Below are positions 1 to 64,000 of a DNA stretch of 64,000 nucleotides, piece after piece (positions within the stretch are counted from its first letter, which is position 1; each line of letters begins with the position of its first letter). The DNA comes from Laetiporus sulphureus 93-53. Its lineage: Eukaryota; Basidiomycota; Agaricomycetes; Polyporales; Laetiporaceae. The notes below the pieces were generated by a model. The model was not told the DNA's origin. It worked only from the letters and a program-made list of their open reading frames with translations, and made no database searches. Position numbers and translations under genes: made by a program. Location: the NCBI RefSeq assembly GCF_001632365.1, contig NW_024468532.1:317623-381622 (forward strand), written 5' to 3'.

Positions 1-848
1 GCAAACCTGGTATCCTGAGCTCGTACGCGTCCACTCATCCAATCGGTGATAGATAACAGCTCAATATCACTCCCAAGGACTACCCTGGATCCAACTTTTC
101 CGTCGAGGACTGGGGTCTGGGTTGGATCGGCGCCCATGCCAACAGTACGTGTCTCGTCTTCTCATCATTTTTACTCGCCTCTGCTCATTGGAGACCTCGT
201 ACAGCGGCCTCTTACGTAGGGAAACCGTTGCTTATTGAGGAGTTCGGTGTCACGGGGCTTGGTACGTGTCGCATGTTCTGTTCGGAACAATGTGCTGATT
301 GCAACTTAGACAACAAGACCGCTATCTATCCTGTATGGGTCGATTATGCTCTTGCTACTGGTCATGCGTAAGTTGTGCATGAGTGCGGGGCATGTGTGGA
401 GCCTGCTAACTCTCTTCCATTCATTACAGTGGGTACGGACCTTCTCCTGGCTGAGGCCTCATACGAATTTCGCTGACTCTTACGCAGAATCCAGCCTTGG
501 CAATTCGGCGAACTGGGCCTGACGGAGGACGGAGGCAACCGTCTCATCAAGTACAGTGACCAGATTTACATGGGCGTAAGTTCATGATTGCGCAAACTTC
601 CACGTTGCATCATACTTTAACGTGTTCTCTCTCAGGCGTCGCCGAACGATGGTAAATTGTTCCGTTCATTAAGAGCAATCCTTAATCTCAGCACTTCCTG
701 CTTCTTTCAGGCTTCACCTTTTATATCAACCAGACGTCGGTCTGGGACGTCTTCACGTAAGTTTATCTTCTAGTCAGGGCTCATGATCCGTCATAATTAA
801 TCTTCTATCGGTAGTGCTGCCGCGGTGGTGCAAGATTATCGTTTCTGA
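1..848 (+). CDS. GH5 endo-1,4-beta-mannanase, C-terminal part (5' end outside window)
   Basis: Secreted-type glycoside hydrolase that would cut internal beta-1,4 bonds of mannan. Seen: exons joined by GT-AG introns encode LNITPKDYPG, then KPLLIEEFGVTG, whose second Glu fits the GH5 catalytic nucleophile, then ALATGHAGIQPWQFG, SDQIYMG and INQTSVWDVF, ending at TGA 846-848. The stretch at about 60-115 is the first exon I can read; bases 1-59 look like the end of an intron. The Ala-Gly before IQPWQFG is supplied by a 3-base exon (TGG, 430-432) between introns 368-429 and 433-487. Family known from the EEFG and PWQFG signatures; subfamily 7 is inferred. The signal peptide and acid/base Glu are outside the window. 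Confidence 0.85.
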
Positions 849-1069
849 CCAATATTTAAGCAGGGCTAGTGCCACGGAGATCAAATCTGGTACCGATACA
901 TGTGCGAAGAAGCTATCTCGGGTATATGGCATCGCAGAGACAATAGCTATGTATAATGTGTTTTATTGCGTCATCCATGCGGTTTTGGGATGACTGTTAC
1001 ATTGTATCCCATTCCTATGATACCATTCAGTATGGACCCTAAACGCTTGCTTCAGACACTACTCACAGA

Positions 1070-1501
1070 CTAGCGGCGGATGGTGGCGCGCGTTTCGACA
1101 AGCGACGCTACAGAGATCCCCTCCATCACCACTCTAGACACACCGTCGCATTTTCGCGCCAGCAGATCTGACTCAGATGCTACGTCCGACAAGTTGCAGC
1201 GGCTGTCTTGCCAGACTTTGACACTATGAGAAAAGCTCGGTCGTCCCAAAGCTCAAGTTACCCCGACATAAGATGCTCACGACAGCATAGCCTCCCTTCC
1301 TCCTAGCTTCGCTGCGTATTTATACGGCAAGCCAGCCGTTAATACGAGCGATATGCTTTCTCCGCTGTGTAAGAATATTGTGGCTCCCGTGCGAGAGCCG
1401 CTGTCGTGTCGCAGCACTTGTAGAGTGACCGGCTCGATAGTGTCATTTGAGAACTCGAGGAGGACTTCGTAAGGCACCGTGGACGTTGGCATTCCCGGCA
1501 A
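1070..1501 (-). CDS. Small conserved protein, paralogue A of an inverted pair
   Basis: Function unknown. Two exons: 1501-1281 and 1223-1070, joined by a 57-base intron (gtgagc..catag). The product is about 121-124 residues; start at 1501, or at 1492 (MPTSTV), which fits the paralogue better. It begins PYEVLLEFSNDT, followed by a LHSGESISLVL block and AGLPYKYAAK, then after the intron VKVWQDSRCNLSDV. The gene at 7613-8098 on the other strand encodes the same architecture (YEVLLDFTNDT, LHPGESVTLVL, AGSVYQYALK, RTWRDVNCTVSQL). Copy A lacks the intron that copy B has just after LDAG. No signal peptide or transmembrane helix. The C-terminal tails of the two copies diverge. Confidence 0.65.
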
Positions 1502-1984
1502 GGCTAAGTGGGTGGTGGGACAGGCATGCCTGCCCCCGAAGGCGCTTCACCAGACTCAAATACTTATGGGCGCAGAGTCGATGCACCCCATTGTCTGCAC
1601 CCTGGTTCTCTCTCTATGCGGAAGTACGAACGAGACAATCTGCACGTTGCGCCTTCATTACACGTCCTTCGCACTACAACGCTCATTATTGTTTTCCCGA
1701 AGAGGAAGATTGAAGCAGGACTCCCCGATCATGCATCGAGCTCGGCTCGGCGAGACGCGTTAGAGATTGCCAAACATGGATCAGGAGGTCGATGAGCATC
1801 TGCAGTATATCTAAGACCCGCCGGAAGCATGAGAAACCGGAGAGCGGAATAGTTACGATGTGCGAGAGTGGAGCGTCTGTTATTGTCTTTGCAGTGGTCA
1901 CGTTCTATGGATGTACGTACGGAGGGGAGATAAGAACCATTCTGCGCGCGCCATACATCGTGTTCCGTCCGAGAATCAGTCCGT
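1502..1984. other. Intergenic, 483 bases
   Basis: Lies between the 3' end of the ERI1-like gene and the start of paralogue A, both on the minus strand. It should hold a 3' UTR and a promoter. Several short open frames overlap here in different frames, but none shows family similarity; I see no defined element. Confidence 0.4.
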
Positions 1985-2658
1985 CTACACGTCCTGCGAA
2001 GGATCCCAACCGTCGGAACGCATCCGACGGATTATGCGAAGGATGTTCTTGCAGTCGTCTATCCCCGAATGCTGTCTGCCTTCGAGAGATAGCTTCAAGG
2101 TCTGCAACATCCCCATCATGCCCTGCTGGTAGCGGAGCCGATAATGTCTCCGGAAGGAGTTCTTGACGTTAACGAAGCGATTGTATGGAGCGATGAGGTT
2201 CCCGGATGTATCGAGACTATGCTCGCTGTCACTTAGCTTGAGCTGACGAGGAAGCATGCTCCCGAGATCCCAGTTGCCGCACGTTAGGAAAACATAATCA
2301 GCGGGATCCTTCAGGAAGTCGCTGCCTTCAATGAACTGTCGAAAGCGCTCCCAAACGACAGGGAAGGGATCGGCAGCATCGACAACGTGCTACGGGGCAA
2401 AAAGGCTCGAGCCATGGTCAACTCATTGATGTCTCTCGAACATACCTGCGCGATGCCCGTAAGGTCGATGCAGAATGGAGTCAACGTTGGATGAATCAGA
2501 GGCCTGACATACTCGTGGAAAGTCGCTTCAACCTCGTCTCGTTCCAAGTTATACGCAAGAGTCGGGAACTCTATGATTTCATTCTCTCCTTCGACACGAT
2601 CACCACATGTGGCCTCAAAGTCGAGGATAAGAAGATATCGCAGACGATGTTTCGACAT
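1985..2658 (-). CDS. ERI1-like 3'-5' exoribonuclease (DEDDh)
   Basis: Predicted exonuclease of the ERI1/3'hExo group, which trims RNA 3' ends (small RNA, histone mRNA or 5.8S rRNA in relatives). Two exons, 2658-2446 and 2389-1985, around one 56-base intron, give about 205 residues. Seen: Exo I motif LDFEATCGD near residue 12, EIIEFP supplying the next acidic residue, then LTGIAQ; in exon 2 LTCGNWDLGSMLP (Exo II Asp) and HSGIDDCKNI carrying the catalytic His and last Asp. The start is placed at MSKHRLRYL because the upstream extension of the open frame has no family match. No SAP domain, so this resembles the short fungal forms. Ends at SQDV, stop 1985. Confidence 0.88.
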
Positions 2659-3127
2659 GAACGTGCTGGGAAGATTATGGTGAGGGAACAAGCTGGATGT
2701 GTTGGCGCGAACCAAGGAGCAGGACAAAGCGCCGGCATTCATGTTGATCGAACGGGAACCTGACTGGGAACATTTCGTACGGCATGCAGAACTTCGTCAA
2801 GGCACAGGCGCTCGATGATCCACAGCACAGTGACTGCAGACTGTACCCAGCGCCGGATTCCACGAGACAGCACGGGAGCACACAACATCTGTAATGCTCG
2901 CAAAGAGACACACCGGTGATTCGGAACCAAGAGCAAGTACATAAAATCCAAACACTACGCATCGGCCATCGTCTACCACCATCCTGAACAACATGCATAG
3001 CGGATAACTTGAAAAAAGATGCTTAGCGTATACAGAACAAAGCGGATGAAGTACGAGACGTTACAAACGACATCAGATTCGTGAAATAAGAGCGTGCCCC
3101 GTGAGTCATAACATCCTGCAAGAACGA
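2659..3127. other. Intergenic, 469 bases
   Basis: Between the start of the ERI1-like gene and the stop of the NPC2-like gene, same strand. Presumed 3' UTR of the latter and promoter of the former; no distinctive motif recognised. Confidence 0.4.
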
Positions 3128-3874
3128 TTACCAGCCCAACAGACGGGGTCTCTGAGGCCTAAAGTCAATCTTCATTTCGACACATGCCATATCCTCGTCA
3201 TCCACTGTGTAACCGCGTATGCTGACAGCAAATGGAGCTGGACAGATGTCAGCTCCACATCGAGAGCGATCATAGTTCCACTTACCAGGAGGAATCTCTT
3301 TCGGCAGTGTCACGGTGTGTATGACCTGGTGCTTGCCTTCAGCAACAGGGCACTGGATACTAGCATTTGCACCTCGCCTGCGAGGTTGTGAGTGAGGTTC
3401 TCTTATCGACAACAGGCTGATGACGTACGCTTCCTCGCAAACATCGAACTCCTTTTGAAGAAGCTTGATAGCACCAACTTTAACAACGACGTCTGCATAT
3501 GCGCCCTCCTTGAAGATTAAAACGCTTCAGGCCAGCAGGCCACGAAAAACGGATGTAAAGACGTACCTCAATCTGCTTATCCGCGGTGCCAACAACTGTG
3601 ACAGTCATGTCCTTTCCTTTCTCAGGCGGGTCGGGATAGATTTCAATGCTCTCAATGTGCACTGGGAATGAGCCATCGCCTACGTGCATAGCGGTCGTCA
3701 GTGAGCTGCACACAATCACATCGTCATCAGGTCTCAATACGCACTACAATCTGTCCAAGACCAGCGATCGCTGGTGGTAGTCACGTCAAATGCTTCCTGC
3801 CTTTCACTGGGAGCAGCATTGCAGATAACGTTGAGCGTGGTCACTAAGAGGACTAAGATAGCAAATCGAGCCAT
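3128..3874 (-). CDS. NPC2: Phosphatidylglycerol/phosphatidylinositol transfer protein (ML domain, NPC2-like)
   Basis: Binds and moves lipids or sterols inside the secretory/vacuolar lumen. Five exons give about 173 residues. Seen: an N-terminal signal peptide (MARF then a run of I, L and V ending CNAAPS), WSWTDCS, then IESIEIYPDPPEKGKDMTV, VVGTADKQIE, EGAYADVVVK, EFDVCEEA, ANASIQCPV, TLPKEIPPAPF and IRGYTVDDEDMAC, the standard order of the fungal ML family, with its cysteines in place. All four introns are GT-AG and fall in phase. Starts at ATG 3874, ends with LLGW and TAA at 3128. NPC2 is the closest named relative; lipid preference cannot be read from sequence. Confidence 0.93.
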
Positions 3875-4168
3875 GGAGAGAACGAGAGTGGAGGAGGAGA
3901 AAGAGGAGTGGTGGAGCGGAGAACAAACACTTGGACTGCCGACTTTGGGTTACGTCAATCGTGGGAACTAGATACTTATTCTGAAACCGAGCGGTTGCGC
4001 ATGGGGCTGCGCTGCACAACGGCCTCTCCTCTTCCCACCACCATCCGCTGGTCTTCTGTCCACCGCGCGCTGTCTAGCACTCTCTCCCCAGGCTTCTGAC
4101 GCATTTGCCTCTATCTTTGTTTTTCCAGACCTTCCGCTCGTAGCCCCATAACACAAGGAATCCGCATC

Positions 4169-5149
4169 ATGAAGCCTAGAGAGTACTGCTGCTGCGCAAT
4201 CCCCGTAGTTTACACGGGCATTTATTTTGCGATACTGGAACAATTTGCAGCTGGAATTATAACTGCGACTCTGGCAGTTGCCACACCACAAAGTGAGACA
4301 CTCGCCGCTCTTTTGTTGCATTCCTAATCCAGGCGCTCTGTCAGTTGTGGGAGCGGCAGTGCCCTCCTTCGCAAAATGGATTTTCGCCATCATTTGCTAC
4401 GTAGGTGCAGCGCTTCAGTTCGTAGGTCTCTTTGCAGTTCGTGGGGTGAGTATATCGCCTATTTGAGAATGCGTTGGAAGGGGTTGACGTCGGTTGTGTA
4501 GGAGAGGCCGTCTTTATTCAGAATATATGTAACGTTGCATACGTTGATCACGCTAGCCGCGTTTGCGGTAGCAGCCGTCTGGATCATCATATCGGCCACT
4601 CGACACACCACGGCGGAGACCAACTGCAGGACTACGTATTACTCCGGTACCAACACCACAATTCTGACTGATGAGGCGAACACACTCTGTGATATCTTCC
4701 CTTGGGTTGACATCGGACTCATGGCTGGTCTGTGGGCTCTGATGGCGATCATGCAGGTGATAACATGCCGTCCCCTGTTTTGCCAAGCATTGGCTGATTC
4801 GTTGCCCTCGCACGTGCAGCTGTACCTTTTCTTCGTCCTCTCGTCATATGCGACTGGTATCCGGCGCGATCATGCCAAGTACGATTCGCTGTACGATCCG
4901 ACAGCACCTCTTGCGAGCGACATCCCTCTCCGCACGCGCGGCGACCCCTGGGACGCGCATGGCTCCCCAGACTCATTCGCGAACCCACGCGGATACCATG
5001 ACAGGTCAGAAAGTGTTGCCAGTGTTTCAACTGTAATAGGTGATCGAATGCAGCAAAATCGGGACTACAATGATTATGATCAAACGCCGTATGATCCTAT
5101 CCAGCCAGAGAATGACCACGCAGAAATGAGGCAGCCATATCACGATTAA
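4169..5149 (+). CDS. Four-helix membrane protein (MARVEL-like), fungal
   Basis: Membrane protein of unknown role. Four exons; ATG at 4169 (MKPREYCCC). Seen: four hydrophobic segments, VVYTGIYFAILEQF.., KWIFAIICYVGAALQFVGLF, TLITLAAFAVAAVWIIIS and DIGLMAGLWALMAIM..LFFVLSSYATG. A polar lumenal loop with a Cys pair (ETNC..NTLC) sits between helices 3 and 4, followed by a hydrophilic cytoplasmic tail rich in Asp, Tyr, Pro and Arg. The last intron (4757-4819) is 63 bases and open, so an unspliced reading stays in frame; removing it joins AIMQ to LYLFF and keeps helix 4 continuous. About 270 residues. Four helices plus a tail resemble MARVEL/claudin-like fungal proteins; membership is inferred from topology only. 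Confidence 0.7.
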
Positions 5150-5559
5150 GGGTACGACGAAGAGTAGTTGAATGGGAGTTGGGCCTTGAGTGGTATGTTA
5201 CTCTGAAAATGGAGAGGTGATCCATCGGCAGGGTCAGTCTTCACTACCACCAGTCAGCCGTTGTATACTGATGATTATTCGCATACAACACCCGCATTGC
5301 AGCGTGCGCAAGGCTTGTTGCCTGGCCAGTGATCCGCGACTGCATCTTTGTTACTGCGACTCATTCCTGCGAGGACTTTGGACTTTGCGTTAGCATACGT
5401 TACCCGCATCATATCCTTGTACTGTCCGGACCTTCGTCATATACTATGTTACACAGTTGCTACCATTTACCATGTAACGTTTACGGACCATCTGCGATAA
5501 ATTGTAATCCAGATCGTAGCGCCTATATCCCAGGTATCGCTCTGAAGTCTGATTCGGGG
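5150..5559. other. Intergenic between convergent genes, 410 bases
   Basis: Separates the stop of the four-helix protein from the stop of the F-box/LRR-like gene on the other strand. Presumably two 3' UTRs; no terminator motif or repeat identified. Confidence 0.4.
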
Positions 5560-6861
5560 TTACAATTCCTTCATGTTAACATCCTCCCAAGGTCCAATGT
5601 TTAGTTTAAACCGATGAATCTCAGCAATGGCCTTCCATCTTTTCTCGCGACCGTTCTCGGACATCACTTTGTTCCTGAAGCTAACCCAAATTTCTCGGGG
5701 CGGCGGCTTTCGTTTCATCACAGTAGATTCAAGGGCGTCACACAGTGCCTGCTCCTCTGCCTCCATGGGTATGGCATACCAGGCATTTACGACCTGAAGC
5801 TTGACTATGGCGACCGTGGGGTGCAGCGACAAAACGAAGTTTGTCCGAAGCTCGTCCACCGTGACGAGGCTCAGGGCAAAGTGCTCCAAAAGGGGCAAGC
5901 CTTCCAGGCATGTGGCGATGGCAGTGCTTGTGAGGCGACTGCAGCTGAGTAAGACTAGCTTGCGCAGCCGGCCACCGGAGAGGCCAACCAGCGATTCGAC
6001 ATGACGATTCCGGATCTCGAAGCCAAGCCGGTGCGCGAGTCCGTAGGAAAATGATTCGAGGGCAGCTCCTGTGAAACAGTCTGTGAGGTTGTGCTGGTCG
6101 AAATAGTTTCCGGTGACCCCATGTAGCGTGATGTGGCGGAGAGCTGGTGTGGATAGTGAGGCTGGAAGATGACATTCGCCTGACAACCGTAGCCTGTTGA
6201 TACGATCTGCGGTAACAGTCTCGAACGGATAGATCCTTGTCTCCTGGTCCAAAAAGAGCTCGTACGCGGATAATTGTTTGAGACTTTCTGACAGGACCAT
6301 TGCGTACTCAAATCTTATAGCAAGACGGGTTTTAGCCACTTCTGCATAACAGTATCGTCGATACGATTATAGCTCCCCAAATAAAACCGTGCTTACTGTC
6401 CAGGTCCACAGGTAGCCCCTGGCGGCACTGGAATACCCGAAGGCGTCTGAGGGATGTCATGCGACGGAGTGCGAGGTAGAGCACAGATAACGGCAATGCG
6501 GCCTTCTGCTCAATCAGCACACCTCTCTTTGAAAGATGGAAAAATACATTACTTGCGCGCTTCCACCGGTAGAGAGAACACGGCCGTCATTGGCCACGTC
6601 AGCCCAGTATACTTGGGCTTTAAGGAGGCTGTCCGCATGCTGGAGAAATGCTTTGATCTGCCACTCATTTCTCAGCGAAACATATCCCTGAAATAGCGGC
6701 CCAGCTTCGTGATATATTTGTCTGCACGTGTGGAGCAATCCCAGATGCTGGTTTGACGGTTGACGGGTCTGTGAGACTCGCTGATGCTCTGTCAAGTAGT
6801 GATCATAGATTGCGAGACGGATCTCGACGGGTATTGCAAGGAAATGCAAATCGGCGGCCAT
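5560..6861 (-). CDS. F-box/LRR-like protein
   Basis: Probably a substrate-recognition protein of the type expanded in Agaricomycetes; target unknown. Starts MAADLHFLAIPVEIRLAIYD (F-box-like first helices at 6861), followed by LGLLHTCRQIYHEAGPLF, typical of this family. The large last exon carries leucine-rich repeats (LRKLVLLSCSRLTSTAIA, CLEGLPLLEHFAL). The second intron is clear (gtaagc..tgcag, near 6398-6341). The first is not: in-phase joining of STGGSAQ to GVLIEQK needs a 26-base intron at about 6555-6530, or a weaker upstream donor such as gtatac (about 86-base intron). No frame break otherwise. About 400 residues. Confidence 0.7.
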
Positions 6862-7612
6862 GCTCCCAAGTTATGGCTTCAGGAGTCAATTAGATGCGGG
6901 CAGCTGGCATATCACAACGTTCTATATGAGGATCCTCAGGACCGAGACAAGCAGCGGAACGCACTGAGTCTGACTGAGCGAGATGTTTAGAGAAGGAGGT
7001 CATGTGAGTCTTGTAGAAACCATATACGGACACTCACCACATAGGCGCCCGCTGGCTGCCGGCGGAAGGTGAGGATGCAATTCATGTAACTCGGTTGATC
7101 TGCTGCGTTCGCCTGCCTCACTGCTCATGCATGCCCTGGCGTCACTCGGCTCCCCCCCTATAGGTAGTTGTTGATATCTGCATCGCCCGTCTGCCTCGCC
7201 GAGACCGAACTGAGCAGCCACCCGGCCGGTGCGCAGACAATAAGGCCACGGAGGCATAACGTGGCAACAGGTCCGGTTTTGTCCCATCCTTGCCATGTAT
7301 CCAGGCTGTACACGCAATTTCAATTCCATCTGCCACAGCCAGGCATTTTTGAGCACAGGCCGTACAGGCTCGCAGGCGAACGATACATCAGGAATCGTTT
7401 TAAGACCACGTTCAGTACCGTGAGTGTCGAAGTGCGACGGCCCGCAGAAGCTTCAAGCAACTGTAATTGCCAAGCAGAGCATATACATCCCTGTGCCTCT
7501 CTGGCGTTACGCTCTCTTCTTTTCGCGCCCTCAGAATCCCCGTATCACGTTCCTTCCCTACCACACGATCGTTCCCGAACCCCTCCTCGACGCCCTCCGA
7601 CCGCTTTTGAGC
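6862..7612. other. Intergenic between divergent genes, 751 bases
   Basis: Contains the presumed promoters of the F-box-like gene (minus) and of small-protein paralogue B (plus). Short open frames here do not match one another or any family. A pyrimidine-rich stretch precedes the ATG at 7613. Confidence 0.4.
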
Positions 7613-8098
7613 ATGCCCGCGAGCACTCAATATGAAGTCCTCCTCGACTTTACAAACGATACACATGATTGCGCAACCGTGCAGCTGCTGCGGACCTATG
7701 GTCGGAACACGGGCGCGATCGTTCTATTACATCCGGGCGAAAGCGTCACACTTGTGTTGGATGCAGGTTAGCTCAGCAGCCAGGTACGCATTACTATGAG
7801 ATTGCTAATTCTGCTATGCATGCATAGGCTCAGTCTACCAGTATGCCTTGAAAACGCGTTCAAAAGTCGCGAATGTGACGTGAGTAGCGAATTCACAATG
7901 AGGACCTCCCGATACTAATCGCAACTATTCACCAGCGCGCGGACGTGGAGGGACGTCAATTGCACTGTGTCTCAATTGTTTCCAGGCGGCTCGCATAGCA
8001 TGTCGCAAGCGTCTTCAGAGCCCTGGCGGCCAGTACATGGCATAACGGTCGACCGCCTATGGCGGGATATGCGTTTCTGCATGTGGAACGACTCATAG
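7613..8098 (+). CDS. Small conserved protein, paralogue B of an inverted pair
   Basis: Function unknown; soluble, no signal peptide. Three exons: ATG 7613 to the donor after LVLDAG, then SVYQYALKTRSKVANV, then ARTWRDVNCTVSQLFPGG.. to TAG 8096-8098; about 125 residues. Introns are gttagc..catag and gtgagt..accag, both in phase. By eye about half the first 60 residues match paralogue A at 1070-1501, and the WRDVNCTVSQL block aligns with WQDSRCNLSDV. The shared blocks in both copies, including across the conserved second intron, argue that this is a real gene and not chance. Confidence 0.68.
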
Positions 8099-9413: not shown

Positions 9414-9549
9414 TTATTGAGCATCTGGGCTGTCAGCAAAGGAGCCCAGGATACCGTTGCCTCGCCCTATGTTGAAAGTGAACAAGCTTGAGCCTTGCAC
9501 CACATCTTGGATATCGCTGGTGAAGTTTGGATTGTAGGTACTGCACTGA
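9414..9549 (-). pseudogene. Isolated C-terminal exon of an unidentified gene
   Basis: A coherent last exon. After an acceptor (gtgcag, just above 9549) it reads TYNPNFTSDIQD, VVQGSSLFTFNIGRG, NGILGSFADSPDAQ and stops at TAA 9416-9414. The composition looks like real protein. No upstream exon of comparable quality could be joined in the preceding 400 bases, so this is either the 3' end of a gene with small exons that I failed to assemble, or a remnant. Family not recognised. Confidence 0.35.
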
Positions 9550-10328
9550 AATTTGCTTTATTGGCATTCTGTTCCAAATGTTTTCCTTTTCTCATCTATC
9601 TACATCGCCCCGTCATGTGTTGCTCGTCAGCTTCATACCAGATTGCCTGCATGTGATGACGGTGAACACTGCAAACAGAACTTGTCATCATTCTGTGACC
9701 GTACCCGGAATCCATCCATGTAGGTGAGCCTATGTCGAAACTTTGATAAACGTTCATGAAAACAGAACGCTATGTACGGCCACAGAGACGCTGGCTTTTC
9801 GGCGCCGCTCACTTCCCCGGTGACTTCCCTGGCGAATAAGCCAAATATGTTCGCGTGCCGAAGGAGAACGTGAACCTTCTCCCTATTTCCGAAGAAAAAT
9901 CAGATAAGAAGATATTTTACCTATTGGACGTGCTTTTTACAGATATCACGGACACCGGCGTAGAAGACGGAAATATCGTCGAAATCGGTGTAATCAGGAT
10001 CTCATGCAGGGGTTCGACAGATAGGACTGATGTGCACCAGGGTCTCGATCGCATTGGTAAATGCGTAACCAAGTGGACAAACCCGAAGCCTGGCGCCTCG
10101 AGAATTATCGGCATCGACAGGATTCTACAGTGCCTCGTACTTGCCCGCGAGAAAGTCGGAACCGAGATGATTCGATATTCCCAGCGAAAGGATGTCGTCA
10201 AACGGCTGCAATGAATCTGCGTTGAGATCGCCCTGGATTGTGGTCAGCAGTGATTAGATATAGATGGAAGCAGAGCATTTGACTCAGCATGGTTCTGTGC
10301 GCAGGAACCTTCTATCAACCGAGAGCTC
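9550..10328. other. Unassigned stretch with one open frame
   Basis: Includes an open frame of 119 codons on the plus strand (9855-10214) beginning MPKENVNLLP. It has no recognisable domain, and its antisense is also open over 94 codons. I do not call it a gene. Nothing else is distinctive. Confidence 0.3.
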
Positions 10329-36912: not shown

Positions 36913-37792
36913 TCATGTGCTGGGTGAAAGATCAGAGGGTATATCAATGATTCAGGAAGCGCATATTTGACTAACAGGATTGTCGCCACGACTCGTCTGG
37001 AGTGCGTCGCGTGTCTAAATTCGGTGAGATAGATGCCTGCAGAAACGACGTCATGATACACGACATGAAACGACATCAATTGTTCGCACCTTGCCAGGTG
37101 CCCAAGTTGAGGCGACCGTTTGTGATCGGTATGCAGATGGAGGTGCCGACGAGGGACGTCTTGGTGTGCGAGACTCTATGGCAAGGCAATAATTACATCA
37201 ATGTACTCGATTGGTTTTATATTGCCGGATCCGCTCACGAATCGCTAGGACAGGGGTATTCAGTGCGCAATCACCGCCCTGAATGCCCACTCAGTACTCA
37301 CTCGGGGCCTTCATCCGTATGAATCCAGTTCAGATTCTCCGGGACAATTCTGTCCAAGGCCATGTCCATATCTGCGAACATTCAATTAACCATAACGTAT
37401 TTAAAACAATCAGCCGCTCAAGAAACGAAAATACCTTTCCTCACATCTGAGCACCGTCAGGATACTATCAAATCTCATACTTTACGTATCAAACTGCACA
37501 CACCTGGGTCGTAGTTCTCGTTCACGGTCAAGGCTGCAGAAGTGTGTTGACTGCCAGGTCCGGTTGCTCAGTACGACGTCATGCCACGCTAGCAGGACCT
37601 ACATGAAGAGGTAGAGCATCCCTATCTACACACCGACGAAGCCCACCGTCAGTCTATAGCCTCATGAGCTGGTCGCTGAAGGGATACCTGCACATCCTTC
37701 AATCCCGGGCGAATGTGATCGAGCACTTCATTCGTCACCAAGTGGCATCCCTTCCTGTGGGGAGCGAACGTGAAAGACTTCTGCCAACCCAT
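36913..37792 (-). CDS. YjbQ/UPF0047 family protein
   Basis: Conserved small protein; bacterial relatives have weak thiamine-phosphate synthase activity, but the real role is unclear. About 144 residues spread over eight exons from ATG 37792: [90 protein letters not shown] and LNLGTWQ; then [21 protein letters not shown]. Ends ILT, TGA 36915-36913. Two exons are tiny: 12 bases (37446-37435) and 6 bases (37244-37239), each flanked by AG and GT. They restore exactly the conserved blocks YDPDVRxDM and EGPDD at the length of the family. Catalytic-site residues H, E and R of RHxxHSRxV are present. Confidence 0.92.
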
Positions 37793-47515: not shown

Positions 47516-48637
47516 ATGTTGCGACCTGTTCCACGACTGATTCTCATCCGCCATGGCGAGTGTGGACCGGCTACCATTCATCGTAATCTGACTTGCATCG
47601 CTTGCAGGAGAGACCGAATGGTCGATCAATGGGTCAGTCGATGAGCTTTTGCATGGAAGATCCATATTCACTCAATGGTGGACCTCATTTGCAGCCGCCA
47701 TGTGAGCTATTGAAACGGCCCTTGGTGAAGATCTAGCAGATTCTGAAATTATGTTTGCACGTATAGACTGGCCGTACCGATATCCCGCTCACCAAGCGAG
47801 GTGAGGAACAAACAGCGGGAAATGCGAAGGTGCTCGTCGGGGAAGGAAGTACGTTTCATTATATGAGGAATTCGTCGTCAACTTCCTCAAAGTCTCATCC
47901 AGAGGTGATCGACCCGAACCATATCTGTATGGTCTATGTCTCGCCTAGAGCGCGCGCGCATCATACGTTCCATCTGACTTTCGATCACCTGCCGCAACCT
48001 CCCAAACATACCATCACGGAAGAAGTCAGGGAGTGGGACTACGGTGAATATGAGGGGATGTTGTCCAGCGAAATCCACGAGAAGAACCCAGGTTGGAACA
48101 TCTGGATAGATGGGTGAACGCTCCTCTCAAGTACCACAGAAGGCAGTATGCTCACTAGATGGATACTTGCATAGGTGCCCCGGAGGTGAAAGCACTGCAG
48201 ATATGTGCCATCGTGTGGACACCGTCATTGAGAAAGTATGGTTGTGCACTGGACATCACCTACCGCAAAACCCTCATATGACTGCTAGGTTCGTGAACAC
48301 CACACGCTGTGGCACGAGGCGGGCATAGGTTGCCGCGACGTAGTCATCATCGCTCATGGACACTTCAATCGCTGCATGATTGCACGCTGGATCGACTTTC
48401 CCCTTCATTTAGGTACGTCTAGTCACTGCTCCACGTCGGTTCGAGAAGTTGCCCATATCATGTTTGTAGGAACGCACTTCAACGTGGAGCCCGCGGGAGT
48501 ATGTTTGCCACCTGCTTATACGACACGCGAGCTATGTTGACTGGTCATATTGCCAGGTTGCCGTTCTGACCTACAATCATCGCAATCTGGCCGAGCCTGC
48601 TCTCAGCGCCCTGAATCTCTACGCGCCTCCTCAATAG
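47516..48637 (+). CDS. SHB17: Histidine phosphatase, sedoheptulose-1,7-bisphosphatase (Shb17) type
   Basis: Phosphoglycerate-mutase-fold enzyme; Shb17 feeds ribose synthesis by dephosphorylating sedoheptulose bisphosphate. Exons: MLRPVPRLILIRH-G; ETEWSING; a 7-base exon CCGCCAT (47695-47701) that supplies R-H; TGRTDIPLTKRGEEQ; VIDPNHICMVYVSPRARAH; TEEVREWDYGEYEGMLSSEI and NPGWNIWIDG; CPGGESTADMCHRVDTVIEK; VREHH.. with DVVIIAHGHFNRCMIARW; GTHFNVEPAG; VAVLTYNHRNLAEPALSAL to TAG 48637. Catalytic RHGE and second His (AHGH) are intact. Intron 1 (47556-47607) has a gcgagt donor inside the Gly codon of RHGE. EYEG and the PGGES block favour Shb17 over glycolytic mutase. Confidence 0.9.
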
Positions 48638-54802: not shown

Positions 54803-55938
54803 GACGTTTAACTGATACAGAGGAGATTTAGAGAATCTTGTTAGGTAGTTAGGGGGCCAAGGTGACTCACCTGAAAGTCAGGCAGTCAGCAGCACAAAGC
54901 GAAGGACGAGCGGCACAGGCAATTTAAATAGGAAGACGAGCAGAGAAACACAGCATAGGGACTGTGCGCATCTGCCGCCAGGGGCATAACATCAAGATTT
55001 GGATCCGTTCATACGGCGTTCATCTCTGGGGTGCGAAATGGTTTAGATTGCTCCGACTCCTATCGGCGGCAGCTAATTGCAGCGTCCACAAGTTTGAAAG
55101 GTGGGCGATGCGCCGGCCATTTTGGAAGGCCGCCAACGAGTCTGTTCCGCCTTCTCGAAAGGAGGCTAGCGCTGATGGCTGCAGTGTCCATCACGTAAAA
55201 TAAGCCTGAAGCGCATCCGGATCTGGCTTTTGCGACTAAGATCAGCGACAACGAGGAGGGTCGAGGACCGTAAAAGAAGCACCTTTGCCCGTCAACATTC
55301 TTCGAGCCTAGGTTCCGCTGCCTTGTGACCCTTGCCGAGTGTGCACTAACGGCGAGCGTTGGAGCCGCGACCAAGTGAAGCAGTTCAGCATCCAATCAAG
55401 CCACTGATGGAGCTCAGCGCTCATGCATCATGAGTCACCGCCCGACGTTCGCGCAATATCATCTTCGCGTTTTTGAGTTAGCCTACGGAGGGCGGGTGTT
55501 GGTGGTGGTGGTTGTTTCACAAATTCGTGATCTTGTTGTGCCTTGACTTGGCCACGAGCGCCGTTTGAGCGGGGAGCTCAGGGCTGGACCGCCTGGACGC
55601 GCATGATTGATTCCGCGGAAGCATTCCCCCGGATTCGTCGCCCCGCACGATCAGCGACAATGCACTCTTTGCTGTTCTCACCGTCTGAACGGCGGTAGTG
55701 AGAGGATTGGAGATGGGCAGCGCGACAAGATTGCTGTTCGGCCGACTCGTACCACTACGGATGGGACGACGTCGGGCGTTAGAGTGAGCGCGTCTGCGAA
55801 GGATGGGACGGGAGCCCACGCTCGTGTTTGCGGGAAACAAACACTCCGGCTGTCTGCCTCCCCAATACTTTACTGTTCTCCTTCCTCGTTACCTCCACCC
55901 TCGACTTCATCTTCCCTCGTCACTCGCCGTCACCAGCC
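54803..55938. other. Divergent promoter region, 1.1 kb
   Basis: Between the F-box gene (minus) and YHM2 (plus). Holds a TATA-like element for the F-box gene at 54921-54930 and a pyrimidine-rich leader before the YHM2 ATG. A short GGT run lies near 55500. Open frames here overlap in all frames and are not called. Confidence 0.4.
54921..54930 (-). promoter_or_regulatory. Possible TATA element of the F-box gene
   Basis: On the minus strand reads TATTTAAATT, about 120 bases upstream of the ATG at 54802. Spacing is right for a core promoter; the motif alone is weak evidence. Confidence 0.3.
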
Positions 55939-57381
55939 ATGGCCATCGAGAAGGGTGCACCTGGTCAGAAGGGCGTGAACTGGTCCAACATCGCTGTCGG
56001 TGCGTATACGCGCCTGTGGCTGCTGCGTCACATTCCCTACTCACTTCCTGCCATGTCCACCAGGCGGAATCATGAACATGGTATTTGAATCCTCGTGTTT
56101 TCGGAATTGCATTTTACGTTGACGCGTTGCGGGACGGTATGATGACACGTAGTTCGTGAGTATCTCCGCACTCCGTCCTGTCCTCGGATCATTGAAATAA
56201 TCGTTCACAGGAGGCAAGTTACTCTTCGATGCGGTATGCGCACACATGACTTCATTGCGCAATAGGCCACGACTCTCGGGCAGCCACTCGAAGTCATCAA
56301 GACGCAGATGGCGGCCAACCGATCGCAGACCATGCTCCAGGCTTTGCAAACAATATGGAGCCGAGGAGGTGTACTGGGCTTCTATCAGGGTCTCATTCCA
56401 TGGGTACGTAAATTGTCCGACCATCGCTCATCTCCGTCGCTTAACGTTGATGGTGGCGTCAGGCGTGGATAGAGGCATCCACAAAGGGTGCTGTCCTGCT
56501 GTTTACCGCGTCGGAGGTGGAGACGGCCGTGGTGGGCATGGGCATCAGCCCTGGAGCCGCTGGATTGCTGGGTGGCATGACAGGTGGTGTTGCACAGGCG
56601 TACGCGACGATGGGTGAGCATGGCATCCGCGTTCTAGTCGTCACCTCGGCATTGAATGAATGAATTTGCGATAGGTGTCTCGACATGCATGAAGACCGCA
56701 GAGATCACGCGGCATAAGCAGGCCGCGGCGGGTGTCAAACCTCCTTCGACGTGGGCCGTGTTCGCGGATATCTACCGCCGGGAAGGTATCCGAGGCGTTA
56801 ACAAGGGTGTCAATGCTGTCGCGGTGCGGCAGATGACCAACTGGGGCTCAAGGTGAATAGCCCTTGACTCATATCACTGACGGTACTGACAAAGTGCCTC
56901 AGAATGGGCTTCGCTCGTCTTGCCGAAGACATGATCCGGAAGTTTAAGGGCAAGGGCGAGAATGACAAACTGACTGCGTTCGAGAAGATCATGTCGTCGA
57001 CAGCGGGTGGTGCGTTGGGAACATGGAATCAGCCCATCGAGGTCGTCCGAGTAGAGGTCAGCTCCCAAGAAACGCGCATATAATTGCCTTTGACGCGAAT
57101 CCTCCCCTACTCAGATGCAATCAATGGCGAAATCGAAAAACCCCAACCGCCCACAGAAGGTCACGATCGCGAACACGCTGTCATATATCTATAAGGAGAA
57201 TGGCTTCAAGGGTCTCTATCGCGGAGTCACGCCTCGTATCGGTCTCGGTATCTGGCAAACGGTATGCATGGTGTCCTTTGCTGACTATGTGAAGGTTTGG
57301 TGCGTGATTCTTCCTCGTCTTCTAGCATGCTGGTATTGGAGCTGATGGTGTAACGCTGCATCCAGGGTGAAAGGCAGGTAG
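55939..57381 (+). CDS. YHM2: Mitochondrial citrate/oxoglutarate carrier, YHM2 type
   Basis: Inner-membrane carrier that swaps citrate and 2-oxoglutarate in yeast; also linked to mtDNA maintenance. From ATG 55939: [129 protein letters not shown], ending VWVKGR. Carrier signatures QPLEVIK and QPIEVVR and the Yhm2-specific [11 protein letters not shown] and MTNWGS are present. Phe and Glu before ATTLG come from two 3-base exons (56153-56155, 56211-56213), the second followed by a gcaagt donor. About 310 residues. Confidence 0.92.
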
Positions 57382-57758
57382 AAGTATGAAGATCACACGC
57401 CACAAAACCTCTGTTGTCCGCAGGTAGTTTAGCTACGATGGGTTTATTTTGGGGCGCTTTATCTTGTCGGAGACTGATGTCGTTTAATCTATTGCTATCG
57501 TCCATATGTGCCCTTGTACATTGTTGAACTTTGGTCGAGTTCCGAGATGAGGATGTGGCTTTTGAGTTGGTGGATCGGGAGTTATCAGATAAGATGCAAG
57601 CCCGGAGATGTTGCCGCATTTACTACCTACTCGAGTCCCCGTGATTCCTCTGTATCGCTCACCATGGGATACATACTCTGCCAACATAGCAGCTCCTGTT
57701 TCTCGTTCCCACCTCTACCCTTAACTCAGTCCCAGGCTCAACACAGAGCATCCCCAGC
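57382..57758. other. Intergenic, 377 bases
   Basis: 3' region of YHM2 and promoter of the Mpv17-family gene. Nothing distinctive beyond a pyrimidine-rich run near 57700. Confidence 0.4.
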
Positions 57759-58658
57759 ATGAGCACCGTCGCCGCGCCAAAGAAGATCAACCCCCTCCTT
57801 GCGGCGTACCTCGCCTCGCTTGCCGCACACCCATTGAGGACGAAGGCGATCACGACCAGTTGAGCAATGTCATCCTGTCATCAATATCGACAAGATGGTC
57901 TCATATTTTGACAATAATGCCCAGGCGTCCTGCAGTTCGGCCAAGAGGTACTCGCGACACATTTCGCGGGCGTGCCTGCGCAGCAGGTCCCGAAAGACGC
58001 GCCGCTGTACGCACGTCTGCTCGCACTCACCAAGATCAATGCCAAGGCACCCAAGATGGCACTGTATGGCTTCTTTGTGTCTGCGCCGCTCAGCCACACG
58101 ATGGTGGGCCAAATGCAGCGGCTTTTCGCGGGTAAAACCAGCCTCTCTGCGAAGATCGGACAAGTGCTCGTAAGCAACCTCGTTGTGGCGCCCATCCAGG
58201 TGTTAGGTCAGTACACGTAACAAGCCGTTAAGCTCTCGGAGAGTATTAATTGCATATTGCCGACCGCTTGCAGTGTATTTGTCCTGCACGTCTGTCATTA
58301 ATGGTGCCAGAAGCGTGGACGAGGTAGTGAAGACGATCAGAGCGGGCTTCATGAGCGCACTCCGGGTATGTGCATCTCCATGGCTAGCCAGAGACGTACT
58401 TCTCATCTAGTCGCTGTCAGGTCACATGGATGACACTGCCGCTCACGATCGTCTTTGCCCAACGGTATTTGTCGCCAGAGCTCTGGGTTCCGTTCATCAA
58501 TCTCGTACAGTTCATCACTGGTGTGAGTCGGCCAATTCGTGCAAATTCGATTCGTTTCAATTGTTGTGCTGTAGACCTACTTCAATATGAAGTTGAAGAA
58601 GATACGGATGGCTATGGAGGCGAAGGCCAAGAGGGACCAGGAGGAGAAGCGAGAGTAG
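57759..58658 (+). CDS. Mpv17/PMP22 family membrane protein
   Basis: Integral protein of mitochondrial or peroxisomal membranes; relatives form channels or support stress and mtDNA stability. ATG 57759; exons read LLAAYLASLAAHPLRTKAIT, VLQFGQEVLATHFAG, KMALYGFFVSAPLSHTMVGQ, AKIGQVLVSNLVVAPIQVL, VDEVVKTIRAGFMSALR, VTWMTLPLTIVFAQRYLSPE, LWVPFINLVQFITG and a charged tail KLKKIRMAMEAKAKRDQEEK to TAG 58656-58658. The family order YL..L..HP..TK, YG...SAPLSH and LWVPF is visible; the usual WP in the signature is not. About 235 residues with a Lys/Glu-rich C terminus. Confidence 0.85.
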
Positions 58659-59292
58659 GTGATTCCCGTATTATGTACGACTTCCTCGACGCATCGTGTA
58701 TTTTATCTCGGTTATCTTCTATGATGGTTCTGATGCAACAGAATTGGTTCCCACCCCGCAAGACCAGAGCTAAGCACCATGTTATCATCAGACAATGTGA
58801 ACTGAAACAGCCTTGGGATAATAAGTCCTTAAAGTCTAACTGCATCCGCATTAATTGCACCCGCTGTCACTCCGTGTGTTCGTTGCAACCAACCCAGGTC
58901 ATTGGTTGAGGACAAGCGGGCTTCCCGGCTCCTGCACACGCTTTAGCGAAGAAGTACCACCATCTCCTCGGATCCCGAGGAAATTACGCAAACCATTCAC
59001 TACGTTTCAATTGCTCAAAGCCATGGTATGTCGTGCTGGTCTTGGCGGCATTGAATGTCATTATGACTCCATCCAAAACATACGTTAGCACGGTTACAGA
59101 CGGCCCGCAGAAATGTTTGTCATCTAGAAGATGGTACCAGGCGCGGTCAAGAGTTGAGACACCAAACATGCATGCCATGTATGCGCAAGCGTACGCTTGC
59201 CAAAATTATATCCAATGCTCTGGCGAGGTCAGGTACAGGAAAAACCCACCCGACATCCCCGTGAGATAACGTCCCTCCCATCTATCCTCGAC
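58659..59292. other. Intergenic, 634 bases
   Basis: Between two plus-strand genes. Overlapping frames without family match; A/T-rich in the middle. No element recognised. Confidence 0.4.
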
Positions 59293-61081
59293 ATGGCGCC
59301 ATGGGTACTGCGCGACTCGACAGAACACGACGGCCTCACGTACACCCGCCCTCTCGGTCTCAGCGAGATGGGATACCACTGGGACAGCTGCTTCAACGGC
59401 ACCACCGACCTGGTGTGGCACTACGTGACGGAGTCACATCGTCCCGAGCATTTCGACCAGGCGAACGTCGTGCGCACGTGGATCGCTATGAAACAGTACC
59501 ATCCGCTCCTCGGCTCGCGCCTCGAAGGGTGGGCACAGAGCCCTTCTAATGCCGTGCGTATGGTCGTCTCTGAGAGGCGGTTAGCGGAGCTCGTCCCAGG
59601 CGAGCTACAGTTTCAAGAGGCCGCGACGCCTGACGCAGTGCAGTGCCTCATCGACGACATCATCTACGGCGAGCAGCGGTCATTCCCAGACCTTCCCGTT
59701 CGCGTATTCATTCTGGATCGCACGGACCAGCCGGGTCTTCACCACATCATCTTCAATACAGCGCATCTAATAGCCGACGGCGTGTCGCACACCGTGCTAT
59801 GTCGTACGTTCTTCGACATCCTCACGTCCCCGCCTTCGCAGGAGGTACCTGATCTGGAGAAACGGCTCGCAATGGTGGTGGCTTGCGAGGATTTAAACCC
59901 TGCGTCAAAACTCAGTGTTCCCCGCCAAAGATGGAGGCGCGCCATCGCCTCTGTCATATTTGCCTTGCGCCGGAAAAGGATGCAGGTATTTCTTGTCCGA
60001 TTCCCCGCGGCTCCCTATGACTGACCAAGCTCGGCCAGGGAGGTCAGCCGCTCCCGGGCAAGTATAATACTGGCACTTACCACACACCTTCCCGTAAAGA
60101 AGATCTCAGGCTTCGCCTGACAGAGTCTTCCACTGCCAACATACTCGACAATTGCCGCAGGCATGGCATCACTCTTGCGGCGGCCCTCCCAGTTCTGGCA
60201 CAATTGGCCGCGGCGAGAACACTACACATACAACATGTTCTCGGCAAAATATCTGACGCTGACTGGGAGCAGCGCAGGCGAGAGCCGATGCACTTTTTTC
60301 TGCCGGTGAATTTGCGGCCATACCTAGACGGCGACTGGCGAGAGCGAGGAGGCTTCGCGCAAGTTTTCCTTTCCGTCAACCTGTTCTACTGTTCACTCCC
60401 TTTCCTGCCTTCCCAAGCATCTGCCGGTGGTGGGTCGAGAATTTCTGCTACATCACCCTCTTTCTCGACTTTGCTAAGTCGGGAACATTTCCTCCTGCGT
60501 TGCGATATTGTCAAGAAACAGATGGCCAGCTACATTGCACACCCACTCTTTCTCGAGATAGTGGAAGCTGCTACGAAGAGTTCAGTAGCTAGACGAAAAA
60601 TGATCTACGAGCACTGGCAAGCAGCAATACAAGGCCGCAAATTAACAGGAGAAGATGTACCCGTTAGCGTCTTCGCAGACGATTTGACCTACAGTCTCGG
60701 GTTATCCAGCGGCGGAAATGTAAGTGGCGCACAACTCGAATAGTCAAGTTATGGCGCCTGAAATTCTTCCAGTACGATTCGGTCCAACCTAGTAACTATC
60801 CTCTCGCTCCCGACCATCCCTTGTCATCACAAACTATTCAAACATCAAAATCATCCACTCCTGACAGTCAGCAGATAAGACAATACGAAACTCTGCATAT
60901 CACATCGTGGGAGACTCATCTGCATGTACGGCCAGCGTATTTCTACCTTGGTGCAGTCACCACAAAGAAGCAACTCACGCTGCTCCTCAGTTGGGATGCG
61001 AATGTCTATGAACATGCCTTCGCGGAACGATGGCTTAAAGGAGTCGAAGAAGCACTACTATGGTACTTGGAAAGGTCATGA
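59293..61081 (+). CDS. HxxxD acyltransferase (condensation/alcohol-acetyltransferase-like)
   Basis: Predicted CoA-dependent acyl transferase; acceptor unknown. Three exons from ATG 59293, about 515 residues. Seen: WHYVTESHRPEHFDQANVVR, then catalytic motif HLIAD (His158..Asp162, near 59764) preceded by HHIIFNTA; after intron 1 PLPGKYNTGTYHTPSRKEDL, ITLAAALPVLAQLAAARTLH and PMHFFLPVNLRPYL; a third exon DSVQPSNYPLAPDHP to WYLERS. The two-lobed chloramphenicol-acetyltransferase-like fold is suggested by HxxxD at one third and the VNLRPYL strand in the second half, as in fungal trichothecene-type and alcohol acetyltransferases. ATG 59293 is chosen because the upstream open frame has no family match. 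No biosynthetic cluster is visible around it. Confidence 0.75.
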
Positions 61082-61191
61082 AGGAACCTATCCCGCATGA
61101 GCAAGCTGCGATGTCCCTGTTGAAGTAACGCAGGTAGTAAAGGCTTGCTATTCGCTATAGAAAATGGCTGAATATGTACACGTCTCATCGA

Positions 61192-64000
61192 TCATGACGC
61201 CGCATCGTCTATGACGGTTACATAGTGCGGGTCGTCTGCCCGGGGGGCTTGCACGTATCGAAGTTGCCTAGACTTCCATGGCACGGCCGCGGACTCAGAC
61301 TCAACGAAACTTTGCTCGCCGATCTCAGTTTCTACAACCCAACCGTCCAGGATGACGTTTCCAGGACGCGTCACCCAGACGGTCCCACGGAACGTGACGG
61401 ATCCCAGAGGTTCTAACACCTTGCGATGTATTAGACGACCAGCGAAATGCGCAGAGGCGAGCTGACTGAAAAGACATCAAGAAATTGAGACGCATTCAAT
61501 TGCAAACCAATGTGTCGCTCACGTTGTATGAGACCCTCTCCCGTCCTCGGCGTTGAGCTTGAGTACCACCCGTGAAGGGTTGGTGGGTGAACAGTTTCGG
61601 AGCATGAACGAAATATGCACACAGCAAGGCCTAGGATCCGCTCGTCAATCAACCAATGAGCATCGTCTATGGAGTCAGCTCACCCGCGGGAGAAGTCGTG
61701 TCGTACTGTACTGCTTGCGTCTATTGTCACCGTGATCGGGTCCATCTCGACATTCCATTCACTCTCCCGAATAGCTCCCAAAATCTCTAACCGCTCCCGC
61801 TGCGTCTCTGCATACATTGAGCGTTTAACTTTCATCCGTTCTGCTTCATTAACAATGTCCTTTAGGAATGCATGGCCTGCCCCCAGTGTAAGTCCCGGGA
61901 TAAGCACATGTCCACGACGGCCTTCTGCTGGGAGCTCCCAGCACAACAGAATGTCGAGAGAGTGAGGATTATACAAAGGGAAGATGGCTGGGTGGCTGTC
62001 CGGTGGGATGTAGGGATGAGATGAAACAGCAGATCGAGTGCTATATGTCCGTCTGTTGCAATGGATGAAAGTTCTCATGTCTGCCGTTAGAAGTGGGTTG
62101 GAATTGGAGTCCTAACAGATGACCAACGAATCAGTCAATGTCACTAGGATGATAGTTCAGGACTGCTGCTGACATCAAACACATGCCTGCAAATGAGATC
62201 TATTGGTGGCGGCCTCGTCAGATCTGGTTGGTCACCGTGCAGTACGCCTCGGAGCTTGTTGGTGACAAACCGGACGGTGTCCACAGGATCCGACCTTTGC
62301 TGCCATGGTACAGCACCCAGACTAAATCGGACAACTTGATATGGCGGCATAATGCTCCTAGGACACAAGATTTGAGCGAGAACAAGCAGATCGGGAGCAA
62401 ATGCAACACACGCTTGATATGAACCCAGCGGGGCACACGTCCACATGGGGCTCATGGCGATAAGCTGTTTCAAAGTGACCACACTTCCTTCAGCTGCGTT
62501 TTCTACCTCAACGTTCACTGTAAACAAATGTCCCGTCGACTGGCTTGCCTCCGCCGAAACCGCTATTTGTATCAAGGGGGCGACTTCATAGTGCCTAATG
62601 ACGCGAGTGCAACGAAATGATGATGCATTCGCCTGGTCACATAAGCATGAGCTAATTAATAATGGGTCAAACAAAGACAGAACACTCACTTCGCGAAACA
62701 CGAAAAGGATGCATAGGTCCCGATCACAAATATCAGAGGCATGCAGGATGACTGGAAACTGCAGGGATTCTTCGGGTTTCAGCTCCGATGAGCCATGGGT
62801 GCGACTCAATGATATGAGATGCGGTATCCGAGGAGATAGCGAATTCGAAGAATGTATCAGCTCTGCGACCGATGAGCCTTCACTTGACGGTTCTGTTCCT
62901 TAGTCAGTTAAAGGATTGACCTCGCGTGGGAGGACCGGTCACCTGGGCTATTCGGCTTGTCGACATCAAGCCAAAGCTCATCTTCTCTTCCGGCTACCAT
63001 CCACAGCTCGCCGATAGGATTTGTGCCGGAATTAGTGATCCACAGATTGAGGCGTTTGTACTCTCCTTGAGCCAAGACAAGATGCTCGTCGTCCACAAAG
63101 CTGGTATGCAGCCGCTGGAGGGCTTCTTCGACGTCAATCTTGATAACAGCATCAGGCGCATACACTTTATTTTGTCTTTGTTGCGATGTATCGTGCAGTC
63201 TAAAACCGCGCATTGCTAAAGATTCTGTTACTGGTAGCAAGGATAAAAAGTCGTATGTGACATGATCGATCACGAGTGATGCACATTGTTTGCACTTGAC
63301 CGCAATGGGGATCTACAATCTCGTGTCAATGGAATCGAATGAAGTGATACTTGGCCAACGGACCGTACGTGTTTCCTTCCCTCCTAGCGTGATGCCGTCA
63401 ATGACCTCGACTTCAACAAGTTCCTTCGCACTCTCGGGGTTATCTGAAGAGGCCTCCCGAACAGTGATCGAAAGTCCGGATATATTGATATCGACATCGA
63501 GAGGGTTTGTCATCACAAGGTCAACCCAGAAGTCCTCTGTAGTGATTGTCAATTCAATGCTCACACTGCTGTATGGTGAGTGTTCTGACCATTCACAGCG
63601 GCTTTGCGGCTGCGCTCAAGTCGCTCTTTCCCTCGAGGTCTCCAGAATGCACTCCAGTCTTCCTCTAGCCGGTCCCACTCTGCTGGGTCCCCTTCAACAG
63701 TATCGCCTGTGAATCTGACCCTAGTGCGTTTGGCTTGGCAGAGTGTTACTGGCAACTGAAGACCAGCAGCTTCCCATTTCTCTCGCTCAGTCGTCTTGAA
63801 ATGCTGTAAAGTGTAATGTCAACGCAGTCGATAAGGTGTCATCTGCAAGGATTCGAACTCACCTTCAATGCTACTCTGAAATCCTCTAGGTACACTTTGT
63901 CCGTTGAAATGCGGCCATCTGGAGTGCTTCTTCCGCTAGACGCTCTAGATGAAGTCGGGTCGGCTTGCAGTGAGTGATCACAAGAGCTGCCTCTCAGTAG
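61192..64000 (-). CDS. TRS85: TRAPP-III subunit Trs85/TRAPPC8-like, C-terminal part (5' end outside window)
   Basis: Subunit of the TRAPP tethering complex that activates Ypt1/Rab1 in autophagy and Golgi traffic. Runs off the window end. Exons read LPVTLCQAKRTRVRFTGDTV, DPAEWDRLEEDWSAFWRPRG, IELTITTEDFWVDLVMTNPL, RLNLWITNSGTNPIGELWMV, FPLYNPHSLDILLCWELPAE, KVKRSMYAETQRERLEILGA, RESEWNVEMDPI and FRGTVWVTRPGNVILDGW, to stop 61192. The succession of beta-rich blocks with W-TRPG and LWITNSG is that of the C-terminal Ig-like region of large TRAPP subunits. I favour Trs85/TRAPPC8 over Trs120/Trs130 from the KVKRSMYAETQRER block, with moderate confidence. Six or more introns. Confidence 0.7.

Follow-up and report, generated by a model that had tools for sequence, protein, structure and literature searches.

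Can exons as short as a single codon be genuine parts of functionally unrelated genes, and do they make the genome that carries them unusual? This question is raised by a stretch of 64,000 nucleotides (nt; hereafter the window) from the polypore Laetiporus sulphureus 93-53 (Polyporales; assembly of 38.6 Mb), which covers positions 317,623 to 381,622 of the forward strand of contig NW_024468532.1. An original prediction, made from the letters of the window, had placed six exons of 3–12 bases in genes for a mannanase, a YjbQ-type protein, a Shb17-type phosphatase, and the mitochondrial carrier YHM2. We located all six, and the four genes are intact once spliced. With good confidence, we regard the six as real coding exons that would have arisen where near-randomly positioned introns fall a few bases apart, with splicing presumably proceeding by intron definition. 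What is new is that YHM2 contains two neighbouring one-codon exons, a pair which, judging from protein comparisons, is likely conserved and appears to be widely misannotated.

The micro-exons were placed in the window by reading the sequence and by scripted splicing, and the mannanase frame was completed with 3 kb of sequence left of the window. The genes and exons concerned are as follows (aa, amino acids).

1 to 848, plus strand: 3' part of a GH5 endo-beta-mannanase gene (part of exon 13 to exon 21 of 21), spliced by hand; its 5' part lies left of the window.
430 to 432, plus strand: mannanase micro-exon TGG, 3 nt, predicted to complete the Ala and Gly of HAG (ab initio call; 4/300 shuffles).
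636 to 651, plus strand: small mannanase exon, 16 nt (splicing).
36913 to 37792, minus strand: YjbQ/UPF0047 gene, 9 exons, 138 aa; the model is identical to the public protein P0241, with PDB relatives 1xbf and 1vmh.
37435 to 37446, minus strand: YjbQ micro-exon ATGTGAGGAAAG, 12 nt, encoding DVRK (splicing, shuffles, present in P0241).
37239 to 37244, minus strand: YjbQ micro-exon CGATTC, 6 nt, encoding D-S of PDDSV (splicing, shuffles, present in P0241).
36913 to 36919, minus strand: YjbQ terminal coding exon, 7 nt, holding the stop codon (P0241 has the same end residues).
47516 to 48637, plus strand: Shb17-type phosphatase gene, 9 exons, 219 aa; identical to the public protein P0121, with yeast YKR043C (3f3k) as best PDB relative.
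47695 to 47701, plus strand: Shb17 micro-exon CCGCCAT, 7 nt, in the context NG-RH-TG (splicing, shuffles, relatives).
47556 to 47607, plus strand: Shb17 intron 1, GC-AG (splicing).
55939 to 57381, plus strand: YHM2 mitochondrial carrier gene, 10 exons, 301 aa (splicing, relatives).
56153 to 56155, plus strand: YHM2 micro-exon TTC, 3 nt, Phe27 (splicing, shuffles, relatives).
56211 to 56213, plus strand: YHM2 micro-exon GAG, 3 nt, Glu28, the next exon after TTC (splicing, shuffles, relatives).
56214 to 56265, plus strand: YHM2 intron 4, GC-AG, 52 nt (GAG/gcaagt), which closes the tandem micro-exon pair (splicing).

In the spliced window sequence, the six are internal coding exons of 3, 3, 3, 6, 7, and 12 nt, each lying between two introns, and the frame runs intact from ATG to stop in all four genes (442 aa for the mannanase, 138 for YjbQ, 219 for Shb17, and 301 for YHM2). 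The introns that flank them measure 52–72 nt and are of the GT-AG type, the sole exception being the GC-AG intron that follows the YHM2 GAG exon. In YHM2, the two one-codon exons stand in tandem, in the order ATG / 72-nt intron / TTC / 55-nt intron / GAG / 52-nt GC-AG intron / GCC. By its length, only the Shb17 exon is required by the frame, because 7 is not a multiple of three, as the lengths of the other five are. Further internal exons of 13, 16, 17, and 18 nt occur in the same genes, so that the size series has no break at 12 nt within a total range of 3–211 nt. Two conserved window genes contain GC-AG introns (intron 4 of YHM2, intron 1 of Shb17), and a third GC donor follows a predicted 8-nt exon at locus L032.

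Annotated proteins of relatives carry a trace of the YHM2 pair. The best 120 of 2,434 (YHM2), 3,912, and 7,997 relatives were compared, with the proteins that have an NCBI record set apart from the rest; for YHM2, these are 51 with such a record and 69 with only jgi, lgn, or ena sources. The Phe-Glu pair encoded by the two exons (FE, in the context MNM-FE-V) is present in all 69 proteins without an NCBI record, both in the 59 whose contigs do not exceed 1,500 bases (the longest has 1,418; 59/59) and in the 10 from longer contigs (10/10). Because the former contigs are shorter than the unspliced L. sulphureus gene (1,443 bases), these 59 proteins very likely derive from spliced mRNA. Among the 51 NCBI proteins, FE is found in 16, while 22 lack both residues, 11 have other residue pairs, one has only the E, and one has a longer insert (16/51 vs. 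69/69, Fisher p = 3e-18). The damage is confined to the site: indels at the three micro-exon junctions affect 24, 24, and 23 of the 51 NCBI proteins vs. 0, 0, 0, 0, 0, and 2 at the six other junctions, and the 69 remaining proteins have none at any junction. Gaps away from the junctions that are shared by at least 3 NCBI rows occur at the ends, at position 6, and at positions 243–245, and are present in the non-NCBI rows too. The public YHM2 protein of this very strain (P0001) lacks FE, both 3-nt exons having been dropped. If the 69 other proteins are right, most of the 51 NCBI proteins examined would be wrong at this site, and many mushroom proteomes probably share one two-residue error in a core mitochondrial carrier. 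At its other end, P0001 probably reads into the last YHM2 intron (57300 to 57365), which would give it a wrong C-terminus of 14 residues; P0002, P0003, and P0006 end much like our model, and P0030 differs.

The annotated form without Phe-Glu could instead be a real isoform, with the two 3-nt exons being alternative and the gene yielding two carriers, one with the residues and one without them. Skipping both exons would keep the frame, exactly these two residues are absent from the 22 NCBI proteins mentioned above, and Somion occarium is annotated with both forms (P0012 and P0023), which come from equally long contigs and are identical except for Phe-Glu. On the other side stand the 69 of 69 non-NCBI proteins with FE, although the query itself contained FE and the ranking therefore favours rows that have it. 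The 13 additional NCBI proteins with other residues, only the E, or an insert (FQ, FK, VE, and IE among them) look like frame repair by gene finders. Taken together, we consider a genuine isoform improbable. The same holds for its stronger form, in which the TTC/GAG pair of mushroom YHM2 would be ancient, older than the split of the orders, and its inclusion or skipping would act as a working switch between carrier forms; we would give this little weight.

For YjbQ and Shb17, the public proteins of the strain (P0241 and P0121) are the same as the spliced models, and the 12-, 6-, and 7-nt exons are thus already annotated. The expectation that automatic annotation would drop such exons was therefore only partly right: it applies to both YHM2 exons and fails for three of the five comparable ones, which are contained in the public models. 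Among the best 120 relatives of YjbQ, the D-S encoded by the 6-nt exon is absent from 10 of 84 NCBI proteins and from none of the 36 others (Fisher p = 0.03), and 2 of the 84 show damage at the 12-nt exon. In the region of the terminal 7-nt exon of the same gene, C-terminal indels occur in 15 of the 84 NCBI and 3 of the 36 other relatives.

The species whose YHM2 models lack FE belong to the Polyporales, Agaricales, Hymenochaetales, and Amylocorticiales, and those with YjbQ residue loss include members of the Russulales and Boletales; these orders were looked up for six of the species. With losses spread over several orders, the exons look old. Most simply, the genomes of these species would have the exon edges in common with L. 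sulphureus, and the micro-exons would then be old rather than recent gains. They would have been present before several Agaricomycete orders diverged, and most of the six are likely to be common to many other mushrooms. Recent dense intron gain, which had been proposed as their cause, does not agree with this pattern, as models from other orders show losses at the same exon edges. A short run of residues that is missing from gene models may serve as a trace of conserved micro-exons without the DNA of the relatives.

A more basic doubt is that the micro-exons are misread parts of single longer introns or sequence errors. Some of them are indeed skipped by gene finders, three bases carry little coding signal, and one call of our own finder (8 nt, at the mitochondrial carrier locus L017) looks false. 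We enumerated splice forms with GT or GC donors, AG acceptors, introns of 40–120 nt, middle exons of at most 30 nt, and at most two or three introns. In the five tests, 133, 23, 61, 20, and 23 forms were listed, of which 12, 3, 9, 1, and 2 are open, and in each test exactly one form produces the model peptide. Except in the mannanase test, and hence in four of the five, a single intron that skips the micro-exon would exceed 120 nt and falls outside this enumeration; the peptide would differ. With shuffled introns, the model peptide was reached in 0 of 300 trials in the four tests on YHM2, Shb17, and the two YjbQ exons, which together comprise five micro-exons, and in 4 of 300 in the mannanase test. 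The model residues at the micro-exons also agree with those of relatives for five of the six exons (YHM2, Shb17, and YjbQ). The YjbQ model matches bacterial structures around DPDVRKD, the Shb17 model, whose frame needs the 7-nt exon, matches yeast YKR043C around RHG-TEWS-G-TG, and micro-exons in an Rbg1 gene elsewhere in the genome (see below) likewise agree with yeast. Misreading or sequence error thus appears very unlikely, and five of the six micro-exons are well supported as predicted coding exons, the mannanase TGG less so. Recursive or nested splicing is known from fungi in the form of stwintrons, in which the short pieces would be leftover splice sites that are not kept in the mRNA, and gaps of a few bases between consecutive short introns would look alike in genomic DNA, but the bases in question encode residues present in relatives and the Shb17 frame is lost without its 7 nt, leaving this reading with hardly any credibility.

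Micro-exons also occur outside the window. We sampled 16 pieces of 10 kb at round coordinates on contigs C1–C7 (160 kb; 38 predicted genes with 171 internal exons) with an ab initio finder that uses an averaged branch-site score, was trained on introns between confident exons, and serves as a rough guide only. A gene for the Rbg1/DRG1 GTPase (L042, about 4109 to 5187, minus strand) has micro-exons of 7, 9, and 12 nt with a joint gain of 17.2, which complete EMARTQKN, QVIAVART, and YVLNKID as in yeast Rbg1 (4a9a). The suggestion that such exons extend beyond a single gene or window is thus supported. A fourth call in the sample has a gain of 0.7, within noise. Extrapolated from three micro-exons per 160 kb, the whole genome would hold roughly 700, a figure with a very large error since all three lie in one gene. 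Short exons inserted by simulation were recovered by the finder at rates from 49 of 63 (7 nt) up to 64 of 67 (9 nt).

How many micro-exons should be expected was estimated by dropping the same introns at random into the coding sequences and counting internal exons no longer than 12 nt. The four genes, which were chosen since they hold micro-exons, contain six vs. 6.5 expected (95% range 3–11). The number of micro-exons thus shows no excess over random intron positions, and because it fits random placement, it needs no special cause beyond intron density. Introns are spaced at one per 52–101 nt of coding sequence in the four genes and at one per 300 nt in the predicted genes of the sample, i.e. 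3.3 introns per kb of coding sequence. Compared in intron density, not in micro-exon rates, with other basidiomycetes, the genome gives no sign of a raised rate (3.3 vs. 3.35 per kb in Cryptococcus neoformans). Stronger splice sites around the micro-exons, which had also been envisaged, were not observed: the summed scores of 17 flanking and 40 other introns in five genes, including Rbg1, do not differ (Mann-Whitney p = 0.97), and neither do donor (p = 0.77), acceptor (p = 0.51), branch site (p = 0.54), or length (p = 0.69) when taken singly. This comparison treated the GC donor of YHM2 like a GT donor, omitted Shb17 intron 1, and used matrices trained on the same sample. With regard to regulated micro-exons of the neuronal type, which a dedicated regulator includes in a switch-like way, the observation is again this lack of difference from other introns. 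Ten micro-exons not longer than 12 nt were accepted, of which six lie in the window, three in Rbg1, and one at L017. Seven of them have a length that is a multiple of three (binomial p 0.02–0.04), too few exons for such a bias to be built on.

The reading that we favour, with real coding exons left between chance neighbours, could work as follows. Dense introns at near-random positions would sometimes land a few bases apart and leave a micro-exon between them. Under intron definition, each intron of 52–72 bases would be recognised as a unit and the introns would be excised in turn, which would set no lower limit on exon length. Predicted introns in the sample are short and uniform (median 55–57 nt) and exon length has no visible floor, features that intron definition would fit. 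Intron definition has been inferred comparatively for fungi including basidiomycetes, and failed splicing in intron-defined fungi leads to retained introns and not to skipped exons, according to one study (PMC2397502); a micro-exon test in fission yeast is cited in another (PMC11121469). At the YHM2 pair, one intron would leave first, after which the neighbouring splice site would abut an exon of normal size. Such a sequential route is likely, since a 3-base exon should be too short for complexes on both of its sides to assemble simultaneously. The GAG exon would be the entire exonic stretch able to pair with U1 (GAG/GCAAGT), which may offset the GC donor. Both the splicing of these exons in this strain and its order are what we infer. 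Adjacent 3-base exons would be a clean substrate for studying how the spliceosome handles exons shorter than its footprint.

Several observations weigh against this account. Besides the choice of the four genes, the ranking of the YHM2 relatives, and the frame-preserving length of the YHM2 pair, they concern the mannanase exon, the Shb17 trace, and the counts. Whether TGG is included or skipped, the mannanase frame stays open (2 open of 23 forms). The gene product matches the endo-beta-1,4-mannanase 3wh9 (phmmer E 5.1e-64, with a query that is approximate at three exon joints), and its PDB relatives are distant, so that the alignment does not settle a single residue. TGG was called ab initio: when internal exons of less than 16 nt are disallowed, the parse of the gene scores 8.3 lower, a gain that TGG shares with a 13-nt exon. 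This exon therefore has weaker support than the other five and rests on the ab initio score and the intron lengths. The annotation trace of Shb17 is weak: among the best 120 relatives, H24 is absent from 4 of 99 NCBI proteins (one of them an incomplete gene model) vs. 0 of 21 others (Fisher p = 1), and indels at the micro-exon junctions affect 2 and 4 of the 99, with 3 of 99 at junction 1 too. Across 19 genes of the window (15 ab initio and 4 curated; 128 introns), the six known micro-exons compare with 10.3 expected (95% range 5–16; P of at most six = 0.077). In the sample, four calls of 12 nt or less stand against 10.8 by random placement (95% range 5–17). Either some were missed in both sets, or such exons are truly somewhat depleted. 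The finder's calls include false ones: 445 null genes yielded 27 exons of up to 12 nt when all scores were counted, and one with a gain of at least 4, which makes the genome-wide rate a rough figure. Of the six micro-exons in the window it recovered only one, so that its real sensitivity lies below the simulated one; in the window, it missed the Shb17 and YjbQ genes altogether and skipped the YHM2 pair.

Very short exons have been described in several other organisms, among which Phlebia radiata presumably belongs to the Polyporales as well, Cryptococcus neoformans is a member of the Tremellomycetes and hence of a different class than Laetiporus, and Fusarium is an ascomycete. In P. radiata, exons go down to two nucleotides, many consist of one codon, and very short exons are typical of the genes (PMC6540522). 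One-codon exons are thus shared with L. sulphureus, whereas the P. radiata models were built with BRAKER1 and RNA-seq, and the passages of that paper at hand contain neither a cross-species tracing nor a tandem pair (PMC6540522). C. neoformans is likewise an intron-rich basidiomycete with short introns (3.35 per kb, median 56 nt) and tiny exons, down to 1 bp, that are hard to annotate, its evidence being RNA-seq (PMC3990503). The P450 genes of the white-rot basidiomycete Phanerochaete chrysosporium have small exons, the shortest of 6 bp, but these concern one gene family and were read as a source of alternative splicing (PMC1184071). The 1-nt exon of Fusarium CYP621A, conserved over many species, resembles the present ones in that it was deduced from the reading frame together with an intact relative, and differs in being confirmed by RNA reads (PMC12940212). 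In plants, micro-exons (up to 15 nt) are conserved between taxa, as is likely here, and are lost from annotation, including adjacent exons of 5 and 12 nt in rice; these were found from RNA-seq, and the relevant passages mention no adjacent 3-nt pair (PMC8831610). In Ganoderma lingzhi, Iso-Seq performed more poorly than RNA-seq at very short exons (PMC11590231), which matters for any long-read test of micro-exons.

The micro-exons of the window are thus likely real and of an already known kind of gene structure. For the tandem pair in YHM2, a thin literature search found no published description. A genome-wide occurrence is plausible but would be ordinary for an intron-rich basidiomycete. The wider claim that this genome is unusual in micro-exons was not borne out, because their number fits random placement and their kind is in print for other basidiomycetes.

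Searches by gene family gave 39 loci, of which 25 were used; of the rest, two lie in the window and twelve overlap others. Among the 25, the mitochondrial carrier at L017 likely has an 11-nt exon at 1218 to 1228 (minus strand). The 8-nt call at this locus was rejected, as the product resembles a mitochondrial carrier more closely with a longer exon, judged by what carrier sequences typically look like. Altogether, the finder made 13 calls of at most 15 nt, and those supported are two in the mannanase (TGG and a 13-nt exon), three in Rbg1, and the 11-nt exon of L017. The remaining five calls have gains of 0.1 to 4.1, and the 8-nt call at L032, with a gain of 5.4, is plausible.

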